Positions 2,653 through 36,187 of a stretch of 60,571 bases of DNA are shown piece after piece. The notes beneath the pieces are model-generated. The model did no database searches and was not told the DNA's origin. It saw nothing but the letters and a program-made list of their open reading frames with translations. The position numbers and the translations under genes are program-made. Source of the stretch: an uncultured Brachyspira sp. Lineage in GTDB: Bacteria; Spirochaetota; Brachyspiria; Brachyspirales; Brachyspiraceae. Location: assembly GCF_944390845.1 (NCBI RefSeq), contig NZ_CALXRM010000012.1:1-60571 (forward strand). The letters run 5' to 3'. How positions within the stretch are numbered: position 1 is the stretch's first letter; each line of letters begins with the position of its first letter.

Positions 2653-4824
2653 TTATTTATTAGTTAAATCTTCTATTAAATCATAATAATGCTTTTTGCC
2701 TTGAAAAATATCCTGAGATAATATTTTTTGAGCATTTTCATATTTATATATTTCTGAATCTTTGCTAATATCATTTTCTAAAATTAATGTATCATTTGTA
2801 ATTTTATAAAATTGATGATATGTACTTATTAGTCCGTCAATTTCTTCTTTATAAAGTAAAGATATAACACTATTTTGATAATTAGTAACTCCTGCATTTA
2901 CAGCTATGAACATAGGTATATTTTCAGGGACAAAATTATTAGGTGCTTTATATGCTCCATTAGTACCGTCCCAAATTAATATAGGATTTGGAGTATTATC
3001 ATTTAAAAAGCTATTTTTTATATCATTATCCATAGAAGAATTTTCTATTATTCCTCTTAAGTATGGATACAAATGGTCATGTTTAAATATGATCAATGCA
3101 TTAGGAGAATAATCAAGTATAATGTCTCTTATTTTAATTATTTCCATTGCAGTAATAACAGAATTATCCATAGTTTCAATTAAATTATATACATTTTTCT
3201 TATCTATAAGAGAGAAGAAATTATTGTTATTTTTTATAATATTAAAGTCATTTTTTATATGTGATTCTGTATGTCCTAGTAATGTAAAACCATATAAAAA
3301 TACAGGTTTATCAAAATTATTAATATTTGTACTTAGGTAAGCATCAATATTTGTTGTTCCAATATTAAATATGATATTTTCAAAGCCTATAGCAGGTAGA
3401 AAGTTAGCTAAATTATATGAATTTATAGCTTCTTCCAATGCTGTAGTGCTATATCCATTTTTTGAAAGTAAATCAGGTAATGTGTATTCTAGTAAATTAT
3501 TTTTAGGCTGATTTTTTTGATATAGAGGACTTGATCCGGTGAGTCCTGCAAGTCTTGCATAAAAACTTCCGTTTCCAGTATTGGGACCAATTTTTCTAGA
3601 ATTATTAGCCCAATCTCTATATTCTTTTGGAAAAGGGTCTTTATCAAAGAGATTAGTAAAGTGAGAATAATCATAAAAAGACTCTAGAAATATTATAAAT
3701 ATATCTCTTTTATCAAAATTGTTTTGCAATTTTAAATTTGAATAATTTCTTTTTTCTTCTTGACTTTTTAAGATATTTAAAGCATTTAGTACTTCATTTT
3801 TTGAATGTCTTTTGTTATTAGATCTATCATAATTGATTCTATAATTAATAGTATCTATAATTCCATTTTCATTTGCTTTATTTGCAAAATTATTCCAAGC
3901 GATATTAACATCGCCTTTTCTAAAAAATACACCATATATAATAATTATTATCATTACAATCATTACTATAGAAGTACTTTTTTTCATCTTTAATAAATTA
4001 TAAATTGATAGTCCTATTAATAATATAATAACTGAAAAGTAAATTAAACTGCTTAATATTATTAATATTCTTATCCAAAAAGATGATACTGCTATCAATG
4101 AAGGATATAAAGTAGGTATATCTCTAAATAATAGTATACTATTTTGGAAAGTTAATCCTAATGGCTGTATAACAAAAAATGATAGTATATTTATTATTTC
4201 AAATAATAGTGTATATAATATTTTTTTATTTAAAAGATTAAAAGCTATAGTCAAAAATATATATGATAAAAGTATATCAGCATAATGATATCTTATTACC
4301 ATAATTGAAAATTGTTTAAGTATTATTGGCAGTAACAAATAAATAGAACTATTTATTAAAAGCAGCAATATATAATATTTATAATTTCTTTTTATATTTG
4401 GTATTATATAAAGATATAAAACAGGGAATATAAATAAGAATAATATAGATAATATAATAACATTTTTTTTCAGTTTTAATTTGTATTGTATATCTATTTT
4501 GTCATCGGGTTTTAATTCATTATTGTCAGATGATAAAGTGGCAAAAGGTGTACCATTATCATCTTTAGCAGTGAATATATTTTCAGTTTCATTTTTAAAA
4601 TATGGGTATACTCCATATATATCACTATGTCTGAATATTTTATTATTATAATAATTTATTTTGCAATTATAATAATTATCTAATATTTTATCAAATTCTG
4701 ATAGGTATCCAGTTCTTTCTATATTTCCTAATAATGATAAAGATATTAATCCTAATAATATAACAGATACTACAATAGAATATATTATAATAAATTTTTT
4801 ATGTTTTTGAAATATGGAATGCAT
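2653..4824 (-). CDS. Membrane sulfatase/LTA-synthase-fold phosphotransferase-like protein, 723 aa
   Basis: A first membrane helix near residues 12-33 is followed by a periplasmic loop (about 35-115), then several membrane helices (about 118-300), then a C-terminal catalytic-type domain of about 350 residues. That domain begins with DIFIIFLESFYDYS. It contains NTGNGSFYARLAGLTGSSP, where a Ser/Thr would be the nucleophile by analogy with LtaS, plus GFTLLGHTESH and a metal-site-like IIFKHDHLYPYL. These match the alkaline-phosphatase superfamily layout of LTA synthases and OpgB-type phosphoglycerol transferases. The substrate is unknown; a lipid, glycan or LOS phosphate group is plausible. AGAGGT precedes the ATG. 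It is paralogous to, and 127 bp downstream of, the gene at 4952-7351. Confidence 0.72.
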   Translation of the reverse strand: MHSIFQKHKKFIIIYSIVVSVILLGLISLSLLGNIERTGYLSEFDKILDNYYNCKINYYNNKIFRHSDIYGVYPYFKNETENIFTAKDDNGTPFATLSSDNNELKPDDKIDIQYKLKLKKNVIILSILFLFIFPVLYLYIIPNIKRNYKYYILLLLINSSIYLLLPIILKQFSIMVIRYHYADILLSYIFLTIAFNLLNKKILYTLLFEIINILSFFVIQPLGLTFQNSILLFRDIPTLYPSLIAVSSFWIRILIILSSLIYFSVIILLIGLSIYNLLKMKKSTSIVMIVMIIIIIYGVFFRKGDVNIAWNNFANKANENGIIDTINYRINYDRSNNKRHSKNEVLNALNILKSQEEKRNYSNLKLQNNFDKRDIFIIFLESFYDYSHFTNLFDKDPFPKEYRDWANNSRKIGPNTGNGSFYARLAGLTGSSPLYQKNQPKNNLLEYTLPDLLSKNGYSTTALEEAINSYNLANFLPAIGFENIIFNIGTTNIDAYLSTNINNFDKPVFLYGFTLLGHTESHIKNDFNIIKNNNNFFSLIDKKNVYNLIETMDNSVITAMEIIKIRDIILDYSPNALIIFKHDHLYPYLRGIIENSSMDNDIKNSFLNDNTPNPILIWDGTNGAYKAPNNFVPENIPMFIAVNAGVTNYQNSVISLLYKEEIDGLISTYHQFYKITNDTLILENDISKDSEIYKYENAQKILSQDIFQGKKHYYDLIEDLTNK

Positions 4825-30898: not shown

Positions 30899-31885
30899 TT
30901 AATCATGATGTTCATGACAATGGTTCTCATGACAATCATCTTCTTTATATTTGATATTTTCTCTATAAATAGGCTGGAACTCCTCGCGTAAAAGTTTCCT
31001 ATTTAAATCTTTTCCTATAAATACTATTTCAAGTTCATCATTTTCAGTGGCACCCGTAACGGCATATCTGTCGCCTACAACATCATATCTTAAATAATTA
31101 TTTCCGCATTTTATGAAGCCTTTTGATCTTGCAATGTATCCAAACCTTCCATGTATTATATCTTCCAACAATGTCATAAATTTATTTTCATTAACTACAC
31201 TGCAGCCTTTCATACTTATAGAATCCGGCATTTCTTCATTTTGGGAATTTTCCAATTCTTTTGTTTTATATTTATCATCTAAGAATGATTTTAAAATACT
31301 TTCCCACCAATCCTTATTTTTATTAGAGTAATGCTCATTTAGAATTTCTACATTATCACAAGACACTTCATTTTTTGACATTAATGCCTTTATTTTTTTT
31401 ATAAGTTCATCTGTTTCGTACTGCTCTTTAGATTCCATTTTTGAGATGATTATCTTTGAAGTATTTAAAATTTGATCAACATAGATATCATCATAAGAAT
31501 TCACAAAGCTGTCAAAGGCATTCCCATCTATAATAGTGATTGGTTTAAGAAGTACTATTCTGTCATATTCAATTTGTTTTATATTATTTATAATATTGCT
31601 AAGTTTAGCAACTCCGGTAGGTTCTACTATTAAATATTCCGGGTCTAGTGAATTAGCTATAGTAAGAATTGAAGTTGCAAAGTCTTGCTTCATACTGCAG
31701 CAGACACAGCCTTCAGTTAATTCCCAAATATTCATGCCTTCATCTTTAAGCATATTAGAATCTATATCAACATCGCCATATTCATTTTCCATAACTACAA
31801 AATCTCTTTTAGTTTTGTTAGCCATTTCTTTTATGAGTGTTGTTTTTCCTGCACCTAAAAAACCTGAAACTATTAATATTTTCAT
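30899..31885 (-). CDS. G3E GTPase, CobW/COG0523-family metallochaperone, 328 aa
   Basis: The Walker A loop GFLGAGKTT (8-16), the metal-binding CxCC in EGCVCCSM (Cys60, 62, 63), Walker B-like EPTG, and the C-terminal His/Cys-rich tail (DDCHENHCHEHHD) mark a COG0523 protein that delivers Zn or another metal using GTP. The usual NKxD guanine motif is not obvious (SKMES may take its place). The C-terminal CobW_C domain (about 215-305) is present. The ATG at 31885 has AAGGAG eight bases upstream; one at 31891 would be too close. A cobalamin riboswitch lies 550 bp upstream but points away, so it cannot act on this gene in cis. Confidence 0.88.
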   Translation of the reverse strand: MKILIVSGFLGAGKTTLIKEMANKTKRDFVVMENEYGDVDIDSNMLKDEGMNIWELTEGCVCCSMKQDFATSILTIANSLDPEYLIVEPTGVAKLSNIINNIKQIEYDRIVLLKPITIIDGNAFDSFVNSYDDIYVDQILNTSKIIISKMESKEQYETDELIKKIKALMSKNEVSCDNVEILNEHYSNKNKDWWESILKSFLDDKYKTKELENSQNEEMPDSISMKGCSVVNENKFMTLLEDIIHGRFGYIARSKGFIKCGNNYLRYDVVGDRYAVTGATENDELEIVFIGKDLNRKLLREEFQPIYRENIKYKEDDCHENHCHEHHD

Positions 31886-31983
31886 TATCATCTCTCCTTA
31901 AAAATTATTGTAATTATATAATAGTTTATTTATTAAATCTATATTTTCCATAATTTTATTCCTTTATGACTTTATTGACATTC

Positions 31984-32290
31984 CCCGCCCTCTATATTTC
32001 ATTATGTAATTTTAAAATTTATATTTTAATTTTCTTTTTAGTTAATAAAGAAAAAGCATGCCCGCCCTAGCAGAATTTAGATTTTTAATTTAGCTTCACG
32101 CACGTTAAACAAAATTATAAATATAGATATATTAATAATATAATTTTATTTATAAAGAATATTTTATTAACCGTGCGTAGAGTATATTAAAAATTTAATT
32201 TAAACTTGGGTGGGTGTGTTTTTTAGAGTTTAGCAGTATGTATAATGAAAACAGAAATTTAAAATAAATTTTTAAAATTTAAAGGGTGGG
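31984..32290. repeat. Family A element, copy 7 (complete)
   Basis: Boxes: CCCGCCC 31984-31990, CCCGCCC 32061-32067 within AAAAAGCATGCCCGCCC, CGCACG 32099-32104, CGTGCG 32172-32177 (span 79 bp), GGGTGGG 32208-32214 and GGGTGGG 32284-32290. Outer-to-inner distances are 115 and 113 bp. It lies between the CobW-type gene start and the riboswitch promoter. Confidence 0.87.
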
Positions 32291-32404: not shown

Positions 32405-32433
32405 TTGATATAAAGTGTAATTTCATTTATAAT
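32405..32433 (+). promoter_or_regulatory. Sigma-70-like promoter before the riboswitch
   Basis: TTGATA (32405-32410) and TATAAT (32428-32433) are exactly 17 bp apart and point into the riboswitch. If transcription starts near 32440, the 5' strand of the outermost riboswitch helix would be short, so an alternative upstream start is possible. Confidence 0.55.
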
Positions 32434-32560
32434 ATAGCCCATTCAATAGGGAAATGTAAGTGAGAATCTTACGCTGGCACGCAACCGTAAAGTTTAATTT
32501 TGAATAATTAACAAAGTCGGATTACCTAAAATTAATAATCAAGTCGAGAGCACTGATTAT
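32418..32560 (+). ncRNA. Cobalamin riboswitch without a downstream gene
   Basis: The conserved aptamer blocks occur in order: AATAGGGAA (32446-32454), a P4-type hairpin GTAAGTGAGAATCTTAC (canonical GTGnAAATC core), GCTGGCACGCAACCGTAA in the place of the canonical CCCGCnACTGTAA, and AGTCGGATTACCT as the B12-box equivalent. A TAATTT/AAATTA pair could close P1. A hairpin ATAATCA...TGATTAT (32535-32560) follows, where the partner of the L5 kissing loop usually lies. The next plus-strand gene is lysC, 2.3 kb on; the nearer genes face the other way. Confidence 0.8.
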
Positions 32561-32688
32561 ATATAAGTATTTATTCAAATATTTTGAATCATATTAATAT
32601 ATTTCTATATCAAGATTTGATTATCAAAAATATTTTTGTTTTGAAAACTCAATTAATTCTCATACATAAATAAACCAAATATCTAAAA

Positions 32689-32719
32689 ACAAAAGGAATG
32701 CAAATTGTATTCCTTTTGT
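32689..32719 (-). terminator. Hairpin terminator, probably of the Sua5 gene
   Basis: A perfect 11-bp stem, ACAAAAGGAAT (32689-32699) and ATTCCTTTTGT (32709-32719). On the minus strand it continues TTTTAG, giving a T tract. It could also stop transcripts from the riboswitch on the plus strand, although the T run there is weaker. Confidence 0.72.
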
Positions 32720-32871
32720 GATATTATATTTCTTTTTAATTTCGCTATTTATATAAATTTTATGAAGGTATGAATTAGTACTATATATTTTAGGAATCAG
32801 TTACAGAATAATAGTAAGTTTGTAAATATAATTTGGCTTTTATAATTGACTCAATATATAATTAAATTAAA

Positions 32872-33468
32872 TTAAATATCAAGTTTAACATTTCCCTGTC
32901 TAAGTACTTTATTTTCTATACAATCATATAAAGTAGAAGGAAGTTTATTTTCTAATATTCCAGCATTAACTATTAAATCGACTTTGTCTTTATAAAGTTC
33001 TTCAAGTTTATTTCCATCAAGTATAACTCCAGCACCGCTTGGATTTGCAGAAGGAGCTACAAGAGGCGGAGTATTTTGTAATATTAATTGCATATATTCA
33101 TCATTTGGAACTCTTAAAGCAACTGTTGATTTAAGATAAATAAAATGTTTTTTTAATGAATTAGATAAAGGCATTATAAAAGTTAATTCGCCTGGTACAT
33201 TTTTTTTAACTATATCAGATACTTTTTCATCACAGAATTTTTCAGAATATTTTATATCTTTTAATAATATTAAAAGAGGTTTATTTCTTTCTCTCTCTTT
33301 AATTTCATATATTCTATCTATAGCTTCCACATTCAAGGCGTCTGCAAGCATTCCATAAACAGTATCAGTAGGAGAAATTACTACTCCGCCGTCATTAATA
33401 ACTTTTGTAACCTCATTAGCTACATATTCCATACTTTCTTTATTATTTCTATCAAGATGAATTACCAT
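32872..33468 (-). CDS. L-threonylcarbamoyladenylate synthase (Sua5/YrdC family), 198 aa
   Basis: It makes threonylcarbamoyl-AMP from threonine, bicarbonate and ATP for the t6A37 modification of ANN-decoding tRNAs. The YrdC motif blocks are present: GGVVISPTDTVYGM near the N-terminus, IYEIKERERNKPLLILL, PGELTFIMPL, TVALRVPNDE and APSANPSGAGV. The length fits TsaC/YrdC-type proteins without the extra Sua5 domain. The ATG at 33468 has AAGAGGT six bases upstream; longer in-frame starts overlap the REC-GGDEF gene. Its start is four bases after that gene's stop, so they are co-transcribed. Confidence 0.92.
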   Translation of the reverse strand: MVIHLDRNNKESMEYVANEVTKVINDGGVVISPTDTVYGMLADALNVEAIDRIYEIKERERNKPLLILLKDIKYSEKFCDEKVSDIVKKNVPGELTFIMPLSNSLKKHFIYLKSTVALRVPNDEYMQLILQNTPPLVAPSANPSGAGVILDGNKLEELYKDKVDLIVNAGILENKLPSTLYDCIENKVLRQGNVKLDI

Positions 33469-33472
33469 AATA

Positions 33473-34495
33473 TTACCTCTTAATGATTGTAGGGTGTATA
33501 AAAAGACTTGCGAATCCTCTTCTTTTAGCATTATGCAAAGCCAAAAGTACAGGGGCTACTTCTTTTTCCATATTCTCAATATGATAATTTTTTTTGTATG
33601 CTGTGTATGCTATACCTGCGGATATTGTATATTTGATAATCATACCATTATATTCTAGTTCGTTTTTATCAACAAAATCTCTTATTTCATCAACTTTTTT
33701 ATCATATAGTCTTATATTCATTCTGTTAAAAGCAACCATAAATTGATTATTGTCAAAACGTGCAATAATATCTTCTTTCCTAGTTGATTTTCTTAAAACT
33801 TCAGTGAATTTCAGCATTATTTCTTCTGCTGCTATAATACCAAATTCATTAATAATACTGTCTAATCCGTCTATTGAAAAACAAGCCAAAACTATAGTTT
33901 CTTCATGTCTTACAGTTTCATAAAGTAATCTGCTGAATTGAGAATAGAACTCTTTCTTGTTCCAAAGTCCAGTTTCTAAATCTACGTTCAATATATCATC
34001 ATATTTTTTTTGAGCTTCTTTATAGGACTGATAATTTCTATTTGAAACTTCTGTCATATCTGCCAAAGAATTTTGAAGATAATCAGCCTGTTTAAGTAAT
34101 TTCTGATGTTCTACATATAATTTTCTGTATTTAAGACAGCTATTTACTCTTACAATCAATTCCATTTCATCGAAAGGTATGAATATAAGTCCGTCTATAC
34201 CTAAACTTAAAGCTTCTTCTATAAACTCCATTTTTCTATAAGGAGTACTTAAAAGTATTATAGGAGTACCTTTAGTAGATTCTTGATTTTTAAAAGTATC
34301 AAGGAGCTGCAAACCCTGAGAGTCTCCTATATCAGCATCTAATAATATTAAGTCTAATGTACTTTCATTAGATATATTAACAGCTTGAGAACGTGATTTA
34401 GTTGCTATAGGATTATAATGTCTTTCTCTTAAGAGGTCAACGAACCTGTCTAAAAGGTCTGTTCTATGCTCTACTACTAAAATGTTTTCATTCAT
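33473..34495 (-). CDS. Receiver-GGDEF-like regulator with degenerate motifs, 340 aa
   Basis: A receiver domain (about 1-120) keeps the phospho-acceptor Asp53 (LLDADIGDS), but the acidic pocket is VVEHR and the conserved Lys is Ile106 (FIPF). A coiled linker (120-165) leads to a GGDEF-like domain (about 165-335). Its signature GGDEF reads FDNNQF (247-252), so cyclic di-GMP synthesis is unlikely; it may bind GTP or act through partners. FSIDGLDSIINEFG and the ISAGIAY segment keep the fold. No good ribosome site is visible. It is coupled to the Sua5 gene. The 330-bp gap upstream (34496-34825) holds only the lysC promoter region that I can see. Confidence 0.82.
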   Translation of the reverse strand: MNENILVVEHRTDLLDRFVDLLRERHYNPIATKSRSQAVNISNESTLDLILLDADIGDSQGLQLLDTFKNQESTKGTPIILLSTPYRKMEFIEEALSLGIDGLIFIPFDEMELIVRVNSCLKYRKLYVEHQKLLKQADYLQNSLADMTEVSNRNYQSYKEAQKKYDDILNVDLETGLWNKKEFYSQFSRLLYETVRHEETIVLACFSIDGLDSIINEFGIIAAEEIMLKFTEVLRKSTRKEDIIARFDNNQFMVAFNRMNIRLYDKKVDEIRDFVDKNELEYNGMIIKYTISAGIAYTAYKKNYHIENMEKEVAPVLLALHNAKRRGFASLFIHPTIIKR

Positions 34496-34825: not shown

Positions 34826-36187
34826 ATGAAAGTAGCAAAATTTGGTGGCTCTTCGGTTGCAAATGCAAGTCAAATAAAAAAGGTGGTAGATATAGTTCTA
34901 GCTGATAAAGATAGAAGAATAGTTGTAGTATCTGCTCCAGGAAAGAGACTTAAAGAAGACACCAAGGTAACCGATTTGCTTATTACTCTAGCTGAAACTA
35001 TTATTTCTGGTAAAGATGGAAAATTAGAGTTAAAAATTATTATAGAAAGATTTAAAAATATTATAGATGAACTTTCACTCTCACATGATTTATTAAAAGA
35101 GATACAATCAGATATACAAGAGAGAATATCTAGTGATAAATCACTTCCTACAAAATTTATAGATGGTGTTAAAGCATTAGGGGAAGATTTGAGTGCTAAA
35201 GTTATAGCAGCTTATATTAATTCTCTTGGAGTAGAAGCTAAATATGTTAATCCTAAAGATGCAGGACTTTTACTTTCTGAAGAATTTGGAAACGCTACTG
35301 TATTGGAAAAATCTTATGATAATTTAGCTAAATTAAAAGATGAAGAAGCTATAGTAATATTTCCAGGATTTTTTGGATATACTGAAAAAGGCGATGTAGT
35401 AACTTTCCCTAGAGGAGGAAGTGATATTACTGGTGCTATACTTGCAAAAGCAGTTCAGGCAGAAGTTTATGAAAACTTTACTGATGTTGACGGAGTATTT
35501 GCAGCAGCACCTAATATAGTAGATAATCCAAAACTTATAGATGAGTTTACATACAGAGAAATGAGAGAATTAAGTTACGGCGGTTTCAATGTTCTTCATG
35601 CTGAAGCTTTACAGCCGGTATATGAAGCAAATATTCCAGTTCATATACTTAATACTAATAATCCTTCTGCAAAAGGTACTAGAATTGTAGCTTCAAGAAA
35701 TAAAAACATTAATCCTGTTGTAGGTGTATCTGGAGAGGGTGATTTCTCTTGTCTTTATGTAAGTAAATATTTGATGAACAGAGAGGTTGGTTTCGGAAGA
35801 AAATTATTAGAGATAATAGAAGATGAAAATATTCCTTATCAGCACGCTCCTTCAGGAATAGACAATATATCTGTAATTGTTAGAAACTCTGCTATCACAG
35901 AAGAAAAAGAGAAACGTATTTATGAAAGAGTACGTGATGAGCTTCATGTTGATAATATATATTTTGAACATGGTCTTGCTTTAATTATGCTTGTTGGTGA
36001 AGGTATGCAGCAGTGTATAGGGGTTTCAGCAAGAGCTATGCATGCTATGGAAAAATGTAATATCAATATTGAAATGCTTAACCAAGGTATAAGCGAAGTA
36101 AGTATTATGATAGGCGTAAAAGATGATGATTTAAATAGAGCTATAAAAAGTATATATAAATCATTCTTTGAAGAGCAGTTATTATAA
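34826..36187 (+). CDS. lysC: Aspartate kinase, 453 aa
   Basis: It phosphorylates aspartate at the head of the lysine/threonine/methionine/diaminopimelate pathways. The N-terminal kinase motif KFGGSSVANASQI (4-16), VVVSAPGK, FPGFFGYTEKGDVVTFPRGGSDITGAILA and the FTDVDGVFAAAPNIV segment are present. Two C-terminal ACT domains (about 300-450; GVSGEGDFSCLYVSK and LVGEGMQQCIGVSARAMHAMEKCNINIEMLNQG) give feedback control, probably by lysine or threonine. Length is typical of class-I kinases without a dehydrogenase fusion. It stands alone between the promoter region and its own terminator; no asd or dap genes are adjacent. Confidence 0.95.
   Translation: MKVAKFGGSSVANASQIKKVVDIVLADKDRRIVVVSAPGKRLKEDTKVTDLLITLAETIISGKDGKLELKIIIERFKNIIDELSLSHDLLKEIQSDIQERISSDKSLPTKFIDGVKALGEDLSAKVIAAYINSLGVEAKYVNPKDAGLLLSEEFGNATVLEKSYDNLAKLKDEEAIVIFPGFFGYTEKGDVVTFPRGGSDITGAILAKAVQAEVYENFTDVDGVFAAAPNIVDNPKLIDEFTYREMRELSYGGFNVLHAEALQPVYEANIPVHILNTNNPSAKGTRIVASRNKNINPVVGVSGEGDFSCLYVSKYLMNREVGFGRKLLEIIEDENIPYQHAPSGIDNISVIVRNSAITEEKEKRIYERVRDELHVDNIYFEHGLALIMLVGEGMQQCIGVSARAMHAMEKCNINIEMLNQGISEVSIMIGVKDDDLNRAIKSIYKSFFEEQLL

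Follow-up and report, generated by a model that had tools for sequence, protein, structure and literature searches.

What does a riboswitch control when no gene follows it? This question is raised by the window (the whole stretch of DNA analysed here, 60,571 nucleotides of an uncultured Brachyspira sp.), in which the blocks of a B12 aptamer stand behind a promoter and lead to no gene. Two explanations had been offered by a sequence-only reading of the locus: either a B12-related gene, such as one for a BtuB-like receptor, was lost, or the riboswitch makes a short regulated RNA, possibly acting in trans or as antisense RNA to the end of the neighbouring Sua5 transcript. From the analysis described below, the locus is read, with a probability of about 0.6, as a free-standing gene whose product would be a small noncoding RNA (~280 nt) with a riboswitch as its 5' half and, at its 3' end, an exposed tail followed by a terminator.

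The promoter, the order of the aptamer blocks on the plus strand and the coordinates proposed in that reading were borne out by the match to the promoter consensus and by the family alignment (Table 1). Its description of the downstream region was likewise correct. Only minus-strand genes, coding for Sua5 and a response-regulator/GGDEF protein, lie directly after the element; no credible gene was found on the plus strand 3' of it, and the next plus-strand gene starts near position 34826. Nor does a start codon with a ribosome site precede the terminator hairpin: the search for open reading frames of at least 20 amino acids inside the predicted transcript yielded one TTG-started frame of 29 codons, which has no ribosome site. 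The hairpin is the sole terminator-like site of the region (found 1, expected 0.0). All 10 aligned orthologues, from both chromosomal sites described below, keep the promoter, whose identity between sites is 79% vs 49% for the 5' flank. The CobW-family gene is not adjacent to the orphan RNA in the other species examined; in loci L003, L004 and L018, other neighbours are found on that side. Judged by its sequence, the element has its own promoter, a riboswitch, no gene and its own terminator, and is in this sense a free-standing unit.

Table 1. Predicted features of the orphan riboswitch locus and its neighbours (positions in the window).
Feature	Position	Strand	Details
Sigma-70-type promoter TTGATA-17-TATAAT	32405-32433	+	TTGATA 32405-32410, TATAAT 32428-32433; 11 of 12 consensus bases
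AdoCbl-II-type cobalamin aptamer	32436-32535	+	P3; P5 32456-32472; P6 ~32473-32489; P7 32492-32512; B12 box 32513-32526
P13 hairpin, loop L13 = CGAGAGC, proposed partner of loop L5	32534-32560	+	Aligned in orphan and gene-linked copies
Unconserved spacer	32563-32641	+	Identity 22% between sites, 38% within site 1
Conserved single-stranded tail, 47 nt	32642-32688	+	Core ATACATAAATAAACCAAATATCTAAAA at 32662-32688
Intrinsic terminator hairpin and U-rich end	32689-32722	+	Hairpin 32689-32719
Sua5/YrdC gene, convergent neighbour at site 1, outside RNA	32872-33531	-	Pfam PF01300, E 2.2e-43
Response-regulator/GGDEF gene	33473-34495	-	
CobW-family GTPase gene, divergent neighbour	30899-31891	-	Pfam PF02492 and PF07683

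A palindromic repeat, whose ends read TTAACCGTGCGT and whose arms read GCCCGCCC/GGGTGGGTGTG, is interspersed in the window (32051-32224, also e.g. at 249, 15409, 19737, 49975 and 54746). The end motif TTAACCGTGCGT matches 10 times in 60 kb as compared with 0.24 matches expected. One copy of the repeat lies just upstream of the window riboswitch, and a similar end is present upstream of the copy in genome G016.

At the Rfam gathering threshold, no cobalamin match was obtained in the window. With relaxed filters, AdoCbl-II (RF01689) spans positions 32429-32535 with 24.6 bits (E 0.0022), which is below the cut-off of 36.5. This cut-off is exceeded by the B. innocens orthologue (L003; 37.9 bits) and by a gene-linked relative (L014; 40.0 bits), and the identity of the aptamer is resolved by these two homologues; of the other copies, five scored 31.9-34.2 bits and one 27.0 bits. 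The sequence-only reading had named the lack of an Rfam cobalamin hit as grounds for its own rejection. Applied at default settings, this criterion would have misled: the window sequence fails it and the B. innocens orthologue passes. When 24 copies were aligned, the consensus folded into P3, P5, P6 and P7 with 19 consensus pairs, 12 of which show two-sided changes, and close relatives lead B12-related genes (operons for a lipoprotein and a TonB-dependent receptor). By this comparative evidence the window element is real and is read as an aptamer of the AdoCbl-II type, and cobalamin binding is predicted.

A covariance model built from 24 copies detected a total of 43 family members in 25 of 26 Brachyspira genomes. 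Non-orphan copies whose surroundings were read are mostly located ahead of genes for small lipoproteins followed by a BtuB-like TonB-dependent receptor, the latter resembling BtuB/TonB-B12 with E values of 7.1e-14 and 6.5e-11, though below the curated cut-offs. In most gene-linked copies, loop L13 (GAGUGCA) is complementary to a UGCACUC segment that runs into CUCCUUUAU, which in turn is complementary to the Shine-Dalgarno (SD) sequence (AUAAAGGAG) directly before the start codon. On the simplest reading of these complementarities, the gene-linked copies look like translational OFF switches: B12 would fold P13 onto L5, whereby the anti-SD strand would be released and the SD sequence covered.

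Several further features of this family and of B12-related loci were recorded. Many Brachyspira have small, rapidly evolving lipoproteins, arranged in tandem and unmatched in Pfam, in the interval between a B12 riboswitch and a BtuB-like receptor (L190:4349-6425 on G000:C40; gene-linked loci L013-L017 and L019-L024); they are candidates for surface B12-capture proteins. At L182 (G016:C1:2919685-2919824), a gene-type riboswitch with a lipoprotein gene downstream misses the usual anti-SD segment right after P13; this copy is either a variant of the platform or also in decay. A second cobalamin riboswitch, of the RF00174 type (48.3 bits, above cut-off; L189:3710-3891 on G000:C40, the same element as L001:1501-1682), sits between a btuFCD-like gene set and an AdoCbl-dependent propanediol-dehydratase microcompartment operon. 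The first gene of this operon is 330 nt downstream of the riboswitch and has a strong promoter of its own (TTGACA-17-TATACT, 4047-4075). A B12 riboswitch that precedes a B12-using pathway and possibly has no gene of its own is unusual.

The comparison of the locus with other Brachyspira, as suggested in the sequence-only reading, revealed that the window is no isolated case. The orphan form, with no gene behind it, is present in 12 genomes that belong to one clade (tree of sua5 and radical SAM genes, midpoint rooting), and it occupies two unrelated chromosomal sites. At site 1, it is convergent with sua5 and is carried by the window genome, the B. murdochii-like G016, B. innocens (G017) and Brachyspira sp. 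G79 (G024). At site 2, it lies between a divergent Na+:dicarboxylate symporter gene and a convergent radical SAM gene in G003, G004, G005, G009, G012, G013, G020 and G023. The orphan RNA is absent from G008, G011 and G019, which is best read as loss, and in G003 its promoter, P4-P6 and terminator are gone; hence, it is dispensable. In the G003 copy (L032 ~1170-1290; G003:C3 ~229430-229550), a GC-rich, repeat-like insert of ~100 bases replaces the promoter and P4-P6. Of the 12 carrier genomes, over both sites, 11 have preserved tail and terminator. Part of the aptamer core is deleted in G016 with promoter, tail and terminator remaining intact, a pattern that points to the tail as the functional part.

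Sequence identity is distributed very unevenly along the element. Mean identities between the window and the other site-1 species were 0.41 for the 5' flank, 0.90 for the promoter, 0.67 for the aptamer core, 0.38 for the spacer, 1.00 for the tail (47 nt), 0.32 for the terminator and 0.35 for the 3' flank. Between sites, they amounted to 0.22 for the spacer, 0.99 for the tail core (27 nt) and 0.40 for the terminator. On this conservation, the window tail is under strong selection. Because terminator identity is that low, the stems are different sequences in different orthologues; all of them fold strongly (-16.4 to -19.9 kcal/mol; z -3.7 to -6.1). The conserved part is A/C-rich and largely, if variably, single-stranded, the mean unpaired probability of the core in predicted ensembles being 0.78 for the window copy and 0.34-0.78 across copies. 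The predicted fold combines an accessible, conserved stretch with an intrinsic terminator 3' of it, as expected of a trans-acting base-pairing sRNA. The tail core has a stop in each of its three frames, and the small frames present differ between the two sites and have no ribosome site. The tail is single-copy in each carrier genome: in those carrier genomes that were searched for further occurrences (up to 3 mismatches over 23 nt), the one additional match has 3 mismatches and lies in G003, no more than the reversed-pattern control gives. The exact 25-nt tail sequence is confined to Brachyspira within the scanned contigs of GTDB r220.

These data bear on the possibility that the locus is a leftover leader, in which the lipoprotein/BtuB-like gene was deleted and promoter, aptamer and a 5' UTR stub stayed behind without function. 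Paralogous copies do lead such genes, a SD-like AAGGAGCATTTCATT persists in the spacer of the B. innocens orphan, and erosion is visible in the altered loop L13 of the window, the deleted aptamer part of G016 and the decayed G003 copy. However, in a neutral stub a 47-nt tail would not stay identical between species next to flanks of 35-41% identity, terminator stems would not go on pairing through sequence change, and the same 3' end would not be expected at two sites, which makes the functionless stub an improbable explanation. As the tail is near-invariant, the terminator stems still pair and the two sites share one form, the orphan is not a mere scar of gene loss. Of the two original alternatives, the regulated RNA is favoured by the tail and terminator kept at both sites. 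The loss of a BtuB-like gene may be right for the origin of the element, given that AAGGAGCATTTCATT in the B. innocens copy looks like a relic SD sequence, but not in the sense of a mere scar. The suggested antisense action toward sua5 was not supported. The window RNA is convergent with this gene, but it ends at its terminator ~150 nt before the Sua5 stop codon without coding overlap, and at site 2 the convergent neighbour is the radical SAM gene; pairing with the convergent neighbour is therefore the least probable of the readings considered.

Two other functions were weighed against mRNA pairing by the tail. A short peptide under B12-controlled translation might be encoded by a 10-codon frame at site 1 ((A/T)TG AAA ACT CAA TTA ATT CTC ATA CAT AAA TAA), which is intact in all four site-1 copies and resembles the lipoproteins of the paralogous mRNAs in beginning with MK/MQ. 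Yet there is no ribosome site upstream of the frame, an indel breaks it at site 2, and conservation runs past the stop without a codon pattern, all three frames ending within the 27-nt core, so that a peptide gene is very unlikely. Somewhat better placed, though still unlikely, is an RNA like Rli55/EutX, whose tail or hairpin would bind a regulatory protein and not pair with mRNA. B12-riboswitch RNAs of Listeria and Enterococcus act in this manner (PMC8079631), and a conserved mRNA target was not found in the scans described below. The conserved part of the Brachyspira RNA, in contrast, is a linear stretch and not a pair of hairpins, and ANTAR proteins gave no match in four Brachyspira genomes, a search in which the control genomes also gave none.

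For the small noncoding RNA favoured here, the following mode of action is proposed. Binding of B12 would lock P13/L13 onto L5 and release the strand that is otherwise paired with L13 (GAGUGC with GCACUC); in the orphan RNA, this swap would alter either the RNA level or its shape. Since the neighbours differ between the two sites, the tail would then act in trans; base pairing with mRNA is the most likely mechanism, protein binding a less likely one. The alternative GAGUGC/GCACUC pairing is kept in most orphans but missing from the window copy, where L13 reads GAGAGC. Due to this erosion, the window RNA may respond to B12 only weakly or no longer at all. In the B12-bound fold, an intrinsic terminator is not seen. 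In some copies (e.g. L006 and L010) the B12-free hairpin GAGUGC...GCACUC is followed by a U-run, which in this model would favour more RNA in the presence of B12; the opposite direction, i.e. less RNA with B12, is expected by analogy with Listeria. Pfam Hfq had no match in four Brachyspira genomes, with five positive controls, and a base-pairing RNA would thus have to work without canonical Hfq. Many base-pairing RNAs act without Hfq, and its absence does not exclude this class. Taken as a whole, the picture of a B12-sensing, mRNA-pairing sRNA in spirochaetes without detectable canonical Hfq, encoded by a promoter-riboswitch-tail-terminator unit at different sites in sister lineages, is tentative and has somewhat less than an even chance of being right.

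Potential targets were searched in ~1.69 Mb of the window genome (about half; 1353 start regions) and by pattern scans of six and eight genomes. Complementarity to the tail that is conserved across carriers was not found in these scans, near-perfect antisense sites clear of background were not detected in the carrier genomes searched, and the start regions of the B12-related gene cluster (pdu, btu) were not outstanding. Among the 1353 start regions, the strongest duplex with the tail, an outlier, was predicted for metQ (-27.9 kcal/mol), followed by one of -21.0 kcal/mol; the best of 24 shuffled tails reached -25.4 kcal/mol. metQ is the gene for a methionine-transporter lipoprotein downstream of metNI, and methionine is an obvious metabolic neighbour of B12 through MetH. 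The site is missing from the metQ orthologues of other carriers, whose start regions give about -5 to -14 kcal/mol, and metQ is therefore treated as no more than a lead. There is a slim chance that the RNA couples B12 to methionine uptake in this species by covering the metQ start region. A tandem array of MetQ-like lipoprotein genes whose number varies between species was observed behind metNI and a dehydrogenase gene (G000:C4:17140-22122; L275:17140 and beyond).

Other candidates were discarded. Within the tail, CATAAATAAACC is exactly complementary to the ribosome-site-like GGTTTATTTATG, and perfect matches occur at the start codons of several carrier genes, including eutT in G012 and G023. 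Pairing of this kind shows no excess in the window genome (2 start sites vs 0-6 with permuted spacers), and the window species lacks the eutT match. When one mismatch was allowed, reverse-complement 16-mers were in no clear excess over the control, and those matches that recur fall within coding regions.

A riboswitch is commonly taken to control the gene that follows it, and regulatory-RNA products of riboswitches are few, those for B12 being Rli55, EutX and AspocR. Searches of an open-access library of papers turned up neither a B12 riboswitch nor an sRNA described for Brachyspira. If true, our reading would add spirochaetes to the lineages with this design, here with another kind of effector, a near-invariant linear tail, and would imply that such a unit can sit intact at different chromosomal sites. 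It would also provide a concrete, testable small RNA for Brachyspira and suggests that orphan riboswitches be checked for a conserved 3' RNA instead of being dismissed as scars of gene loss.

With Rfam AdoCbl-II (RF01689) the element shares aptamer architecture and core motifs; Rfam lists this family as cis-regulatory, whereas the orphan copies have no downstream gene. Enterococcus EutX is a free-standing RNA that is headed by a cobalamin riboswitch, has no coding gene and sequesters EutV. In Listeria, the AdoCbl riboswitch of Rli55 resides on a noncoding RNA that sequesters EutV and is ended early by B12 (PMC8079631). The putative Brachyspira RNA is equally free-standing, headed by a cobalamin riboswitch and devoid of a coding gene. 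While Rli55 and EutX carry ANTAR-binding hairpins beside eut genes and are terminated early by B12, the conserved tail of the Brachyspira RNA is linear, its locus is not linked to eut genes, and its predicted B12-bound fold shows no terminator. In AspocR of Listeria, a B12 riboswitch controls a long antisense RNA to pocR (PMC8079631), likewise a noncoding transcript; it is 1.4 kb long and antisense to its neighbour, in contrast to the ~280-nt Brachyspira RNA that overlaps no neighbouring coding sequence. Listeria SreA, a SAM riboswitch, also pairs in trans with prfA mRNA (PMC8079631), an activity that is only proposed for the Brachyspira RNA; SreA is the by-product of a riboswitch that still controls its operon, whereas the Brachyspira orphan has no following gene. 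In its architecture, the Brachyspira RNA thus resembles Rli55/EutX and AspocR, from which it differs in effector part, lineage and possibly switching logic.
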